DNA of 56,930 nucleotides from an uncultured Lachnospiraceae bacterium (GTDB lineage: Bacteria; Bacillota; Clostridia; Lachnospirales; Lachnospiraceae): assembly GCA_947166015.1 (NCBI GenBank), contig CAMVCQ010000006.1, forward strand, positions 1 to 56,930. Reading direction: 5' to 3'. Below are positions 32,454 through 39,045 of this stretch, in pieces. A model generated the notes under the pieces. It was not told where the DNA came from, made no database searches, and was given only the letters and a program-made list of their open reading frames with translations. How positions within the stretch are numbered: position 1 is the first letter of the stretch; every line of letters begins with the position of its first letter. The translations under genes and the position numbers were made by a program.

Positions 32454-33623
32454 ATGAAAGCAAAAACTACACTTACATTTACCGGAGATATCGGGTTTGA
32501 CCATTACATGTCGGAAAAATGGAACGACAAAGACCTTGTGTCAAAAGACATACTTGAGAGATTTCATAGCTCCGATCATGTGATACTAAATGTCGAGGGC
32601 GCTATGATAAGCGAGGAGGAAAAGCAGCTGGTCTCTGCCAAAGAGATGCGCCTGATGCACACTATAGACCCGGAGGCTGCCTATTTCCTTCGGTCGCTTG
32701 ATGCAGATATATGGAACCTTTGCAACAACCATATCATGGATGCGGGACCGGCAGGGCTCAAAAGCACCATGGAGATCGCAAGAAAAAATGGTATCAAAAC
32801 CATCGGTGTCGGTATGGATATCGATGAAGCCGCGAAACCCCTGATACTTGATGAGGCCGGAGGGATAGGTATGTTTGCGGTGGGGTACAGACGCGGATGT
32901 AAGCCCGCGGGCCCCGAAAAGGCAGGGTGCCTCGAGTGGACTGAAAATGATATCATACAGAAGAATATAAATGATATAAAAAAAGAAAACCGCTGGTGTA
33001 TCATAGTCTCACACGGCGGAGAGGAGTTCACTTCGCTTCCGTCACCGTATGTCAGAGACAGATATATAAAGTATCTCGAAATGGGAGCGGATATCGTGGT
33101 GTGCCATCATCCGCATGTGCCGATGAATTATGAAATAGTTGACGGCAAACCGATCTTTTATTCACTTGGAAATTTTATATTTGATACTAACTATCAAAGG
33201 GCTCAGTTTAATACGGAAAAAGGAATCATACTAAGTCTCACACTCGATGAAAACAGTTGGGATTTCGAGGCACAGGGGATACTCATCGACAGAGAAAACG
33301 AGCGAATAATAAGCTCTGACCTTCCGCTCATTTTTGAAGATGTTCCCGAAAAAGAATATAAGCTTCTGGCACCACTGTCCGCAAAAGCATTCGTAAATGC
33401 ATACAAAAAACAGCAATTGTTTTTGTACCCGGATAAGTTCAAAAACGCTGATGAAAAAATGTGGGAGGAGCATTTTTTGGATCCCAAAAGGAGTGGCAGA
33501 GTCGAGGGAGAAGCGCTTGATTTCACGATCATGTATCCTTTTGCCAAGGAGGCAGAAAAAGGAGAGTGGAAAAAAAGCGGTCTCGAGAATGTGAAAAAAT
33601 ATATACTTGAGCAGTTGGATTGA
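32454..33623 (+). CDS. CapA-family metallophosphatase-like protein
   Basis: ~390 aa, start at 32454 after AGAGGTG (an in-frame GTG two codons earlier is possible). CapA/PgsA family pattern: FTGDIGFD, NVEGAM, LCNNHIMDAG, IIVSHGGEEF and VVCHHPHVP, i.e. the Asp/Asn/His metal-binding set of calcineurin-like phosphoesterases. CapA proteins act in poly-gamma-glutamate capsule production, but no capBC genes are here and this copy lacks an evident signal peptide or TM anchor. It may be a cytoplasmic phosphoesterase of unknown substrate. Two genes in the operon: the next ATG follows the stop by 14 bases. Confidence 0.85.
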   Translation: MKAKTTLTFTGDIGFDHYMSEKWNDKDLVSKDILERFHSSDHVILNVEGAMISEEEKQLVSAKEMRLMHTIDPEAAYFLRSLDADIWNLCNNHIMDAGPAGLKSTMEIARKNGIKTIGVGMDIDEAAKPLILDEAGGIGMFAVGYRRGCKPAGPEKAGCLEWTENDIIQKNINDIKKENRWCIIVSHGGEEFTSLPSPYVRDRYIKYLEMGADIVVCHHPHVPMNYEIVDGKPIFYSLGNFIFDTNYQRAQFNTEKGIILSLTLDENSWDFEAQGILIDRENERIISSDLPLIFEDVPEKEYKLLAPLSAKAFVNAYKKQQLFLYPDKFKNADEKMWEEHFLDPKRSGRVEGEALDFTIMYPFAKEAEKGEWKKSGLENVKKYILEQLD

Positions 33624-33637
33624 TAACAGGGGGATAT

Positions 33638-34930
33638 ATGAAGAAAAAATTGCTTGTTATTTTTATGATGTTTACATTTGTATTGACTGGGTGCGCGGGT
33701 GCATCTCAGGATAACGGAGCAGCTTCGGGAACGAGTGCAGAAATGGCAACGGCAAAGCCGACTCTTACTCCGTATCCGGAGCCCGCGATCGTGAAAAACG
33801 GATATGTCCACGGAGACGATGGATACTTCAACCTTGAAGACGAGGTTCCGATACATATGCGAGCTCAGGAGGGCGGGACCTGCTGGTTATATGCGGCGTC
33901 GCTCGCGATGGAAACAGGATATGAAATGAAGCACAAAAAAGAAGTAGAGATAGATCCGATGAGCCTTCTTGAGTATTGTTATGGAGAAAACAAAAAAGAG
34001 GGTTTTTTTGTGGAGGGGGCAGATCCCAAAGATTTCGGAGGATTTTCAGCGGTTGTGGTATCAGCTCTTTCGAACGGATTTGATAAATACGTTCTTGACA
34101 ACGCTGTGATCCTGCGCGAAGACAATCCTGATACGATCAAAGAATACGTCAAAAAATACGGTGCTCTGTATATAGCGATTCCGGACAGAGAACCAAGCAA
34201 GGATGGATACTATGACGGATATACAACCAAGAACTGGGTGACTGACGATCAAGAAGACTATGATCATGCCGTTGCTTTGGTTGGATGGGATGATCATTTT
34301 CCAAAAGAGTATTTCAAAACAGAGGCGTCGCAGGACGGCGCATGGATTACATTTAATTCACGCAGCAATAACGAATACTTCTATATCTCATATGACACGC
34401 ACTTTGATTTTTTCCCGGACGGGGATAGTCCGACGGCTATGTCGATCACAGACGAGTACTCGGATGTGGCATCGTATGATTGCGGTTATGACAAAGAACA
34501 TTCCATCAAAAAAGACGGAAAAATAACCACGGCGAATGTGTTCCACAAGTCCGGCACACTTGCAGCGGTCGGGACATACTCCGTAGCCAAAGATCAGGAT
34601 ATAAAAATACAGATATACGACGCTGATTTCAAAAAATGCCTCTACACTCAGGAAGCGCATATGGATGAGGAGGGATACTACACCATCCCGCTTGACAAGC
34701 CTATCGAGGTGAAAGACTACGCGATCGCGATTACATACAATGACATCGCGCCTACCGAGGGCAAGGGAAACAAAGTTGAAAAAATCCGATTCAAAACGAC
34801 CTCAAAAAAAGGAGAGTCATTTGTAAAGATCGGCAAAAAATGGTACGATATCTACGAGAAAAGCACACTCAAAAAGCTGAAGATAAAATTTCCTTTGAGG
34901 AACTGCGCCATCAAGGGGCTGTATAAGTAA
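33638..34930 (+). CDS. Papain-like (C1) cysteine protease lipoprotein
   Basis: Start at 33638 after AGGGGG; ~431 aa. A lipoprotein signal (FVLTGCAG) places it on the outer membrane face. Catalytic residues of the C1 family are visible: Cys in EGGTCWLYAASLAME, His in YDHAVALVGWDD, and an Asn in TFNSRSNN. A C-terminal ~150-residue beta-rich domain (VFHKSGTLAAVGTYSVAKDQ) resembles the lectin-like domain found beside such peptidases in Firmicutes, followed by a lysine-rich end. Likely a surface peptidase or isopeptidase handling peptides or other surface proteins. Co-transcribed with capA. Confidence 0.85.
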   Translation: MKKKLLVIFMMFTFVLTGCAGASQDNGAASGTSAEMATAKPTLTPYPEPAIVKNGYVHGDDGYFNLEDEVPIHMRAQEGGTCWLYAASLAMETGYEMKHKKEVEIDPMSLLEYCYGENKKEGFFVEGADPKDFGGFSAVVVSALSNGFDKYVLDNAVILREDNPDTIKEYVKKYGALYIAIPDREPSKDGYYDGYTTKNWVTDDQEDYDHAVALVGWDDHFPKEYFKTEASQDGAWITFNSRSNNEYFYISYDTHFDFFPDGDSPTAMSITDEYSDVASYDCGYDKEHSIKKDGKITTANVFHKSGTLAAVGTYSVAKDQDIKIQIYDADFKKCLYTQEAHMDEEGYYTIPLDKPIEVKDYAIAITYNDIAPTEGKGNKVEKIRFKTTSKKGESFVKIGKKWYDIYEKSTLKKLKIKFPLRNCAIKGLYK

Positions 34931-34950: not shown

Positions 34951-34992
34951 AATACCACTCCACTTGACATATGTCAAGTGGAGTGGTATTAT
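34951..34992 (+). promoter_or_regulatory. 40-bp perfect palindrome containing the HipA-like operon promoter
   Basis: Bases 34951-34990 are a perfect 40-bp palindrome centred between 34970 and 34971. TTGACA (34964-34969), 17 bases, TATTAT (34987-34992) lies inside it on the plus strand. As RNA it would fold into a long hairpin followed by a U-rich tail, so it can also end the upstream lipoprotein transcript. A dimeric repressor could bind it, and the second gene of the following operon encodes a helix-turn-helix protein. Confidence 0.65.
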
Positions 34993-35070
34993 TTTGTTCA
35001 GAGAATGTAGGGAGATAGCATCGATGAGTGAAGGAAACATAATACTATATATTTTTTTTGAGGGTAGCTT

Positions 35071-35889
35071 ATGGATAATAAAATAATACATGAAAAGCAG
35101 GATCTAACACATTTGAAATGGTCATTTTTTCGCCATTCCTCAGGAACTGCCGGGTCATTTTTAAAAGCTTATTCTGATCTTGATGGTGTAAAAAAATACT
35201 ACAAAATCTCCTCCTACGATAGCGTGAGAGGTATATTTGGACACGAGTGCGCCAATGAAATAATTGCGGACAGGTTGCTGACTTTGCTTGGGATAGAGCA
35301 CGTTCCTTATCAATTGATCCTGGCTGATGTGATCATAGAAGATGAAAAATACGAAACATATCTGTGTGTGTCAGAGGATTTCAAAAAAACAGGTGAGAAA
35401 AAAATAGCTTTTGATGTGTTCTATCAAATGAATCGAAAGAAAAATGAATCTCCTCTTTCTTTTTGCGATAGGATGGGATGGCGAAATCAGGTAGATGCGA
35501 TGCTTTTGACAGATTATCTGATATTAAACCGTGATCGACACGGTGCAAATATAGAAGTGTTAAAAAATGAGTTAAGCAAAAGCATCCGACTTGCGCCGTT
35601 ATTTGATCACGGGCTTTCGCTTATTTTTTCTTGTATTACCGAGGAACAGGCTGAACTATTTGATGTGATGGAAGACAAACCGGTCCAATGCTTTGTAGGA
35701 AGTTCTTCAACATTTGAGAACCTAAAATTGATCAAAAATGCACCGGACCTACATAATCTTAACGAAAAAGAATTTGAGTATTTATTGTATTCACTTGATG
35801 ATGTGCTTTCAAAAAAACACCTGGATAAAATAAAAGAAATGATTGAAAGGAGATGGTGCTTTTATGAAAATATGCGCGATTCGAGATGA
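35071..35889 (+). CDS. HipA-like protein kinase
   Basis: 272 aa. Has the HipA-type catalytic core: TDYLILNRDRHGANIEVL (catalytic loop with the Asp and Asn) and APLFDHGLSLIF (DxG metal-binding motif). The N-terminal part includes SSGTAGSFLKAYSD and KKYYKISSYD, which could form the ATP-binding lobe. Shorter than E. coli HipA (~440 aa) because the N-subdomain-1 is absent, a form often called HipA-C-like or CtkA-like. HipA kinases phosphorylate translation components and slow growth; here that is only inference. The next gene overlaps it by 26 bases and encodes a DNA-binding partner. Confidence 0.85.
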   Translation: MDNKIIHEKQDLTHLKWSFFRHSSGTAGSFLKAYSDLDGVKKYYKISSYDSVRGIFGHECANEIIADRLLTLLGIEHVPYQLILADVIIEDEKYETYLCVSEDFKKTGEKKIAFDVFYQMNRKKNESPLSFCDRMGWRNQVDAMLLTDYLILNRDRHGANIEVLKNELSKSIRLAPLFDHGLSLIFSCITEEQAELFDVMEDKPVQCFVGSSSTFENLKLIKNAPDLHNLNEKEFEYLLYSLDDVLSKKHLDKIKEMIERRWCFYENMRDSR

Positions 35890-36676
35890 GTACCATCCGG
35901 AGTTGGGTGCGATAGGATATCTGTTTTATTATGATAATTCAAAAAGGTTTTATATAGAAATATCAGATGGACTTGATTATTGGACTGCGCCTCCCATTAT
36001 AGATAGTTTTGTGAAGAAAAAACAAAATTATGTTGATTCAAAATGGAGTATTGCCTGGGTCAGACAACGAATAATCCCGCCCGACAGACAAAACATCGGA
36101 GCTATACTCAAGGCACAGGGGATGAAGGAATACAATGAATACAATCTCCTTGTGTTTTCAGATGGTCGATGTGCACAGGATGAATGTATGGTAGAGGAAA
36201 TACACGAAGATGACCTGCCGGATGAAATAAAAAAAAGAATGCAATATCGTGTAAAAGCAGTATTTGCACTTCCCCAAAACAAGCTTTTAGTTTATTTCAG
36301 AGATTCATCCTCTGTTGTTTGTGATGTAAAACAAATCGTTGCAAATGAAAGACAGTTTGCTCCTGTTTTAAATTCAAAGGAGATTTTTCAAAAAGTGATG
36401 GTAAGCGAGGGAGGCTATGGAGTCCGATGGGGCAGCGATGTCGAGATTCCGGATTATATGTTGAAAGCTCATCCTGTCGATCACACAATAAACTTTGATG
36501 AGCTTCAGTTAGTGATCGAGCAAAACCTGTATGACACATCCCAAACCATGGAACGACTGCATTGCACAAGGCAAAACATCGATGATCTCGTAAAGCGCGG
36601 CAAGCTTCCGGTGGTCAAAACAAGCGCCAAAAATAAGCTGTTTTTACGGAGTGATGTCGAAGAACGCCTCTGGTAA
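35864..36676 (+). CDS. DUF2442 plus helix-turn-helix partner of the HipA-like kinase
   Basis: ~270 aa. The start at 35864 has AAAGGAGA upstream and lies within the end of the kinase gene. Residues ~1-120 are a compact domain of unknown type (ELGAIGYLFYYDNSKRFYIE). Residues ~130-205 resemble DUF2442 (NKLLVYFRDSSSVVCDVKQI, YGVRWGSDVEIPDYML). Residues ~222-270 are a MerR/excisionase-like helix-turn-helix (TMERLHCTRQNIDDLVKRGK). The gene order kinase-then-regulator, the overlap and the palindromic promoter fit a toxin-antitoxin style operon with autoregulation. Confidence 0.75.
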   Translation: MKICAIRDEYHPELGAIGYLFYYDNSKRFYIEISDGLDYWTAPPIIDSFVKKKQNYVDSKWSIAWVRQRIIPPDRQNIGAILKAQGMKEYNEYNLLVFSDGRCAQDECMVEEIHEDDLPDEIKKRMQYRVKAVFALPQNKLLVYFRDSSSVVCDVKQIVANERQFAPVLNSKEIFQKVMVSEGGYGVRWGSDVEIPDYMLKAHPVDHTINFDELQLVIEQNLYDTSQTMERLHCTRQNIDDLVKRGKLPVVKTSAKNKLFLRSDVEERLW

Positions 36677-37275: not shown

Positions 37276-39045
37276 ATGGACAACAGGATTATCAAAAAAA
37301 TGCTCCGCGGAACGATGATAGTAATGGTCGTGACAGTTCTCTCAACAATGCTCGGAATGCTTGTTGACGGTATCGTGATCGGTCGTTACCTGGGGCAGTC
37401 TTATATGTCGGCATACGGTCTTGCAAATCCGATCTTCAACCTTTTGATCGCGATAAACGGAGTGCTCGCTGCGGGGATACAGGTTTTGTGCTCAAGGTAT
37501 ATCGGTAGCGGAGATTTCACAAAAGCAAAGCAGGTTCATACGATCAGCTTTATCGCTGCAGGTGTGATAGCCGTGGTGATATTGCTGGTTATGTTTTTCG
37601 GTGGCGATCAGATCGCGATGCTTCTTGGTGCGACCGGAAAGGATGCATATCTGCGACCTGAGGCAGCGGACTACATCAAAAGTCTGGGACTGGGAGTCCC
37701 TGCGCTTATGCTCGCATTTATCACAAATTCTTTTATGCAGATAGACAGCGATCAAAAAAGAACTATCGTAGCTGTTGTTGTGATGACAGTGGCAAATATA
37801 ACCGGAGATTTTATAAACGCACTTGTGATCCACGGCGGACTTTTTGAAATGGGTATGGCGACTACTATAAGCTATTATATAGCTTTATTTATTGCGCTTA
37901 CTCACTACCTGAAAAAGGACAATGTATTGACATTTAAATTCAAAGGATTAAAGATCAAAGACGCCCTTCAGGTGATGAAGCTCGGAGCACCGTCGGGAGT
38001 TGTAAACCTCTGCATAACACTTAGAAATATCGTTATGAACCGACTTCTTCTTTTGGTCGCAACACCTCTTGCAGTCGCTGCTTTTTCGATCCAAAATACT
38101 CTTACCGCGGCAACCGGTGCGATAAGTACGGGACTTGGCATGGCGGTCCTGCTGGTATCCGGAATAGTAGCCGGTGAAAAAGACAGAAGCTCAGCCGTAA
38201 ACCTCATAAAAATAATGAACAAATGGGGACTTTTTATAGCGCTTTGTGAAATGGCTGTTTGCTTAATTTTTGCTACTCCGCTCGCAGGTATTTTTGCAGG
38301 CTCTGATAGGGCGCTTCTTGAGGAGTCGGCGTACTGCGTGCGTATCTATGCGTTCGGATTTGTCGGCAATGTCCTCAATTCCATGATGGAAAACTATGTC
38401 CAGGGAATGGGCAGAGTTGCACTTGCAAATCTCCTGGTAGTCCTGGATACGTTTGTTTACTCTGTCATAGTGGCGTGGGTTCTCGGATTTGGCTTCAGTC
38501 TTCCGCTCGGGTATATCTGGGCAGCCTGGGCTATCGGCGAGGGGATGGTCTTACTCACGACATTTTTCCTTGCGTGGAAAAAGCAGGGGCACTTCCCAAG
38601 GAGGGCGGCGGACTATTCATTTTTCCCGAAGGGATTTACGGAGCCCAAAGACAGCATCGACAGAACGGTTTATAGATTTGAAGAACTCGCTGATATGGGA
38701 ATGGCTGTTGAGAAGTTTTGCTTAAAGCATGGTAGCGGAGATAAATTGGCAAAAAAAATCCACCTCTGTCTCGAAGAAATGGGTGCAAACATCATAAATC
38801 ACGGCTTTTCGGATGGAAAAGAGCACTCTATAGATATCAGGGTTATACGAACGGATGCCGGATTTATGATCCGTATGCGTGATGACTGCAAGTCATTTGA
38901 TCCCAAAAAATGGTACGAGATACATAATCCTGTGGATATCACCCGAAACATCGGGATCCGTCTGGTGTTTGCGATTGCAAAAGACGTTCAGTATGTAAAT
39001 ACCATGCAGTTAAATAACCTTGTGATAGAGCTTGGAGAGAGCTAA
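37276..39045 (+). CDS. MATE transporter fused to a GHKL (RsbW-like) ATPase domain
   Basis: 589 aa. Residues ~1-445 are a MATE transporter (TVLSTMLGMLVDGIVIGRYLG, LGVPALMLAFITNSFMQ, and twelve hydrophobic segments). Residues ~465-589 form a HATPase domain of the anti-sigma factor/RsbW type: HLCLEEMGANIINHGF is the N-box, DDCKSFDPKKW the region around the second motif, and NIGIRLVFAIAKDV the later glycine block. A classical MATE stops at ~450 aa. The soluble domain could sense ATP, bind or phosphorylate a partner, or gate transport. No sigma factor or anti-anti-sigma partner is nearby. Confidence 0.88.
   Translation: MDNRIIKKMLRGTMIVMVVTVLSTMLGMLVDGIVIGRYLGQSYMSAYGLANPIFNLLIAINGVLAAGIQVLCSRYIGSGDFTKAKQVHTISFIAAGVIAVVILLVMFFGGDQIAMLLGATGKDAYLRPEAADYIKSLGLGVPALMLAFITNSFMQIDSDQKRTIVAVVVMTVANITGDFINALVIHGGLFEMGMATTISYYIALFIALTHYLKKDNVLTFKFKGLKIKDALQVMKLGAPSGVVNLCITLRNIVMNRLLLLVATPLAVAAFSIQNTLTAATGAISTGLGMAVLLVSGIVAGEKDRSSAVNLIKIMNKWGLFIALCEMAVCLIFATPLAGIFAGSDRALLEESAYCVRIYAFGFVGNVLNSMMENYVQGMGRVALANLLVVLDTFVYSVIVAWVLGFGFSLPLGYIWAAWAIGEGMVLLTTFFLAWKKQGHFPRRAADYSFFPKGFTEPKDSIDRTVYRFEELADMGMAVEKFCLKHGSGDKLAKKIHLCLEEMGANIINHGFSDGKEHSIDIRVIRTDAGFMIRMRDDCKSFDPKKWYEIHNPVDITRNIGIRLVFAIAKDVQYVNTMQLNNLVIELGES

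Follow-up and report, generated by a model that had tools for sequence, protein, structure and literature searches.

A putative bicistronic Hip-kinase toxin–antitoxin-type module from Lachnospiraceae with a predicted HipS–DUF2442–HTH partner and a promoter-embedded operator

Introduction

A short HipA-like kinase gene in an uncultured Lachnospiraceae bacterium overlaps the gene for a three-domain partner protein, and the promoter of the pair coincides with a 40-bp perfect palindrome. The locus lies in a stretch of 56,930 nucleotides (the window; contig CAMVCQ010000006.1 of assembly GCA_947166015.1) and raises the question of what the partner does: whether it restrains the kinase, represses the promoter through the palindrome, or both. 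The pair is read here, with a probability of roughly 0.78, as a bicistronic Hip-kinase toxin–antitoxin-type module in which the partner would both inhibit the kinase and repress the promoter.

Organization of the locus

The features of the locus are listed in Table 1. The extent of the kinase gene and its 26-base overlap with the partner gene, as described in an earlier note on this DNA, both agree with the open reading frames, and the homologues of the partner begin at the same methionine as the partner itself (ATG at 35864). The promoter, TTGACA-17-TATTAT at 34964-34992, scores 11/12 and has a TG preceding its -10 box. Its earlier placement inside the palindrome holds for the whole -35 box and for only four of the six bases of the -10 box. 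Judging by the -10 box, transcription would start 3' of the palindrome, so the hairpin would belong to the transcript of the upstream gene and not to that of the operon. The upstream gene encodes a lipoprotein with papain-type peptidase and lectin-like domains that is probably exported. Elsewhere in the window, positions 37276-39045 encode a MATE transporter with a C-terminally fused histidine-kinase-like ATPase domain (HATPase_c_2, 2.5e-11).

Table 1. Coordinates of the features of the locus in the window
Feature	Position	Strand	Remarks
Lipoprotein gene, upstream neighbour	33620-34930		Stop codon 20 bp before palindrome
40-bp perfect palindrome	34951..34990		20-bp arms, no loop
Conserved operator core TTGACATATGTCAA (predicted)	34964..34977		TTGACN4GTCAA within one mismatch in 40/40 homologous loci
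-35 box TTGACA, within operator	34964..34969	+	Arrangement repeated in 37/40 loci
-10 box TATTAT	34987..34992	+	Final two bases beyond palindrome
GAGGG, probable ribosome-binding site	35060..35064	+	6 nt 5' of kinase ATG; read from sequence
Short HipA-like (HipT/CtkA-fold) kinase gene, 272 aa	35071..35889	+	
Three-domain partner gene, 270 aa	35864..36676	+	26-bp overlap with kinase gene
HipS-like / HipA N-subdomain-1-like domain	35864..36205	+	Partner residues 1-114; VIA Z 7.5-8.4, profile matches
DUF2442 domain	36242..36484	+	Partner residues 127-207; 2auw_A VIA Z 11.0, PF10387
BldC/Xis/MerR-type winged HTH	36506..36673	+	Partner residues 215-270; 6ama VIA Z 7.0, PF12728

A core Hip kinase

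The kinase matches the Pfam HipA_C model weakly (17 bits against a cut-off of 30.5), its PI3_PI4_kinase match is likewise below cut-off, and no NCBIfam model matches the kinase family. Despite the weak HipA_C score, its identification as a Hip-type kinase is backed by a match to the PADLOC candidate-defence model PDC-M03A (1.7e-11) and by its fold. The predicted structure (pLDDT 82) aligns best with CtkA (VIA Z 16.4 over 234 residues), which the kinase-family profile also finds at 1.6e-5, followed by HipT (VIA Z about 13; 13.0) and HipA (VIA Z 11-12), where the alignment begins at about HipA residue 120. These alignments identify the protein as a core Hip kinase that lacks N-subdomain 1. The kinase has a Gly-rich loop (S24-S29), K45, the catalytic residues D155 and N160, and the Mg-binding D179; K45, D155, N160, D179 and the G-T-x-G motif are invariant across 36 family kinases. 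By predicted fold and motifs, the protein belongs to the HipA-homologous kinases.

A three-domain partner with a HipS-like domain

The predicted partner structure (pLDDT 85) comprises three domains, with low model confidence at residues 71-110. In the partner itself, PF10387/DUF2442 and HTH_17 score below their Pfam cut-offs (20.8 of 23.9 bits for DUF2442, 24.3 of 27 bits for HTH_17), and DUF2442 (PF10387) and HTH_17 (PF12728) both match in 11 of 11 aligned partners. A search of the partner profile against PDB sequences returned RecA matches, which were dismissed as spurious, and 2AUW at E 0.025. No resolvase model matches the partner, and no HIRAN match was found in any of the 11 partners.

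Residues 1-114, described earlier as an unknown domain, align with the HipS chains 8EZR_A (100 of 101 residues, VIA Z 8.0), 7VKB_B (102 of 102, 8.1) and 7AB3_B (99 of 100, 7.5), as well as with HipA N-subdomain 1 (2WIU_C, 8.4). A VIA Z near 8 alone may reflect a common arrangement, and the HipS assignment rests on sequence links. A profile of residues 1-118 matches the pre-kinase region of four full-length HipA-like kinases (L117-L120) at E of about 3e-7 to 2e-8, as well as a HipS–HIRAN protein (HipN, L121) with the Pfam domains Couple_hipA and HIRAN. At almost every locus, the matched protein lies beside or within a Hip-type kinase. Structure and the independent profile links together indicate that the N-terminal domain is HipS-like.

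This domain contains the motif R-x-x-P-x-x-R-Q-N, in which 35 partners share R69, P72 and R75-N77 without exception. Aligned by eye against the canonical HipA LLPEG-type motif, R75 occupies the position of HipS Trp65. Trp65 is the inhibitory residue of E. coli HipS and is absent from some HipS proteins (PMC6581861, PMC10627512). The invariant arginine at this position suggests that inhibition may differ in detail.

Taken together, the partner is predicted to be a fusion of an antitoxin-type HipS lid, DUF2442 and a BldC/Xis-type HTH. Of the three domains in the earlier description, DUF2442 and the HTH have proved real, and the first is no longer without a likeness, resembling HipS and HipA N-subdomain 1. 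That the partner is not a typical HipB is borne out by the HipS–DUF2442–HTH order, as given by fold and profiles.

Distribution of the family

The relatives comprise nine from named genomes, three further close relatives from the genus, about thirty from 397 family genomes and a few from elsewhere in the class. Those in named genomes are mostly Lachnospiraceae, in keeping with the origin of the window. In nearly every intact locus, the partner gene lies 3' of the kinase gene and overlaps it by 14-32 bp, and this neighbourhood survey extends to the family the reversal of the classic hipBA order that had been noted at the present locus. The family kinases are monophyletic (100/99) and stand apart from the hipP-like, HipN, upstream-HipS and fused types. 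None of four flanking proteins tested matches DNA around the other loci, many of which have flanks of about 1.5 kb.

The nearest fold is that of CtkA, itself a kinase outside the hipBA type, and HipS Trp65 is apparently unconserved in the partner. Both features would suit a kinase of signalling or housekeeping type that works with a regulatory subunit, possibly an activator or substrate adaptor, instead of a toxin–antitoxin pair. This interpretation is considered unlikely, since the distribution is patchy (a close kinase in 4 of 39 genus genomes, the full partner in about 30 of 397 family genomes) and the module occurs on viral-type contigs and on a Pseudobutyrivibrio xylanivorans plasmid, where RefSeq gives the label "hypothetical protein" to the kinase and to the part of the partner that it annotates. 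In addition, the overlapping genes and operator-embedded promoter resemble those of toxin–antitoxin modules.

A conserved operator core in the promoter

Homologous loci were gathered by protein similarity alone, and the 200 bp 5' of the kinase were examined. All 40 loci bearing the module contain TTGACN4GTCAA, 25 of them exactly and 15 with a single mismatch, although these loci include close relatives and are not 40 independent events. Dinucleotide-shuffled controls gave 0.32 loci within one mismatch and 0.015 exact, and kinase coding windows gave 0-1 loci. The core is absent at 28 loci of other Hip-type kinases (89 kb). Its position relative to the promoter is also maintained: the TTGACx of the operator is followed by a -10 box (at least 4/6) at 16-18 bp in 37 of the 40 loci, 32 of them at 17 bp, compared with 8 for random anchors.

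Half of the loci have a second operator site, mostly 32 or 41-44 bp from the first; these spacings, near whole helical turns, suggest cooperative dimers, the observations being non-independent. Residue 241 of the partner covaries with the base before TTGAC (Asp with C, Tyr with T), a suggestive covariation of operator and recognition helix, but one confounded by the tree.

In the window, the core is the sole site within one mismatch. The 2.1-Mb genome holds two copies, the second within an ORF, which indicates that the operator is local; control of a wider regulon through the core was rejected on the same ground. In one relative, a coaBC-like gene is preceded by an identical 16-bp palindrome, placed at a likely promoter (L035 position 1501; G430:C28:14048). 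No kinase partner was found in this relative, whose genome is 75% complete. A search of viral contigs with the 16-mer returned 36 stretches, none bearing the kinase.

The coaBC-side palindrome could mean that some unrelated regulator of the host, and not the partner, binds the dyad. Such a regulator is highly unlikely, however, to account for an operator that tracks the module across genera and even into another family of the class, that has essentially one site in the genome, and that disappears together with the DUF2442–HTH half of the partner, as described below.

The outer arms of the palindrome

The palindrome is perfect over 40 bp, as first reported, with 20-bp arms and zero loop; about 5e-8 such arms are expected by chance in a 57-kb window (57,000/4^20). 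A search of the 2.1-Mb genome for its central 22 bp, tolerating up to two mismatches, returned this single copy, and an origin as a multi-copy repeat or mobile element was rejected on that account. Comparison with structured-RNA families gave only sub-threshold matches (a plastid 3'-UTR hairpin and RalA). As RNA, the palindrome folds into a hairpin of -36.1 kcal/mol (z -10), followed by AUUUUGUU; the adjoining U-tract is weak and present for both strands.

These properties, and a position 20 bp past the upstream stop codon, would fit a palindrome that serves chiefly as terminator of the lipoprotein gene and overlaps the promoter incidentally. As an account of the whole palindrome, this is most improbable: the core recurs at all 40 loci, where the outer arms differ or are missing, and is placed as a -35 box, so that termination would explain only the extra arms found here. 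The outer arms were not found in homologous loci. In one relative (L099), the core sits inside another extended palindrome, 54 bp long and 94 to 40 bp 5' of the kinase; it is unlike the 40-bp palindrome, indicating that long arms evolved more than once. Since the core is kept and the arms are unshared, the operator is taken to be the 14-20 bp core alone, and the remainder is probably a local terminator of the upstream gene. The terminator role proposed earlier is therefore plausible from hairpin stability and peculiar to this locus.

Joint loss of operator and DNA-binding half

In six relatives, the family kinase is paired with a shorter partner, of about 116-134 aa, that consists of the HipS-like part alone; neither DUF2442 nor an HTH was matched in the vicinity. 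The operator core is missing from all six loci. In the tree, they form one subclade nested among the full-length loci, so that phylogenetically they count as one joint loss of the operator and the DUF2442–HTH half. The co-loss is in keeping with a role of the missing half in recognizing the operator, and the HipS-like domain stays with the kinase, as would be expected of an inhibitor. The subclade thus offers a natural control.

The earlier note had held that homologous kinases regularly lacking the palindrome would speak against its reading; these six loci are the sole exceptions found, and all six lack the DUF2442–HTH half. The anatomy of the operator, and its disappearance along with the HTH half, strongly suggest that the partner autoregulates the operon through the promoter operator. 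Comparison of the loci accordingly supports the autorepression first proposed from the palindrome.

Comparison with known Hip systems

Ten Hip gene organizations are described by Gerdes et al. 2021, none of them with DUF2442 in the text (PMC8262856), and a kinase with a HipS–DUF2442–HTH partner matches none of the ten as described there. In the open-licence literature, no paper was found that pairs DUF2442 with Hip kinases as a system, although the two words co-occur in a single paper. In classical hipBA, the HipB gene lies upstream and HipA is full-length with N-subdomain 1, whereas here the partner is downstream of a 272-aa kinase. The genome of the window separately encodes a canonical HipA, full-length at about 425 aa and carrying a Couple_hipA domain (G000:C13:31396-31674; L127).

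HipBST of E. coli O127 (PMC6581861, PMC10627512) shares with the present module a short core kinase without N-subdomain 1, a separate HipS-fold protein or domain (there inhibiting in trans; here partner residues 1-114, with VIA Z 7.5-8.1 to HipS and profile links) and an operon-encoded DNA-binding autorepressor, which is predicted here. It differs in having three separate genes, ordered hipB, hipS and hipT, where the present module has two, with the HipS-like and HTH parts fused and downstream; in its HipB-type HTH, as opposed to a BldC/Xis-type HTH with DUF2442; and at the Trp65 position, which appears to be Arg here.

In hipMP, as described in the text of the 2021 paper (PMC8262856), the gene after the short kinase likewise encodes a putative antitoxin that includes a DNA-binding-type module. 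HipP is described there as gamma-delta-resolvase-like, in contrast to DUF2442 and HTH_17 here, and the family kinases form a clade separate from four hipP-like loci. The partners at such loci (L024 946-2851, L026 591-2265, L029 350-2196, L030 320-2082) have a HipS-like domain within the N-terminal half and a resolvase-type C-terminal HTH region; a HipS-like domain in HipP is a link absent from the 2021 paper's text.

The hipIN or PADLOC PDC-M03 type likewise combines a short kinase with a downstream HipS-like-domain protein, and both proteins give weak profile matches, but its C-terminal domain is HIRAN, where the present partner has DUF2442–HTH. The PADLOC candidate PDC-M03B matches a HipS-like plus HIRAN protein strongly (L121 236-931), and PDC-M03 therefore looks identical to hipIN. 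NE0471-type proteins (PDB 2AUW) share DUF2442 followed by a helix-turn-helix region and lack the HipS domain. The inverse of the partner's domain order also occurs: four proteins (L031 2064-2651, L033 514-1098, L122 1051-1707, L123 988-1590) fuse an N-terminal HTH of XRE or resolvase/transposase type to a HipS-like domain just 5' of a short Hip kinase.

Proposed mechanism and significance

Gene order, overlap, folds, the promoter-embedded operator, its conservation and its co-loss emerge from sequence comparison. In the proposed mechanism, the first gene would encode a short Ser/Thr kinase of HipT/CtkA type. The N-terminal HipS-like domain of the partner would cap and inhibit it in trans, as HipS does HipT, and the C-terminal HTH half would dimerize on the TTGAC-N4-GTCAA dyad, occluding the -35 box and stopping transcription. 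DUF2442 would join both halves and may link, dimerize or sense. The partner would thereby merge roles that E. coli HipBST divides between HipB (repressor) and HipS (antitoxin). Direct binding, repression and kinase inhibition by the partner are what we infer from the comparison.

A trigger-sensing role for DUF2442, with a phage or metabolic signal freeing operator and kinase together, is doubtful at present. If it were true, one protein would couple derepression to toxin activation without antitoxin degradation.

The module is best described as a variant of the Hip-kinase toxin–antitoxin kind, with a putative toxin function and strongly suggested autorepression. It would extend the 2021 set of Hip-kinase families by one. 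Across such systems, the HipS lid domain appears recombined with different DNA-binding modules, and the predicted operator of the present module is unusually clean and testable.
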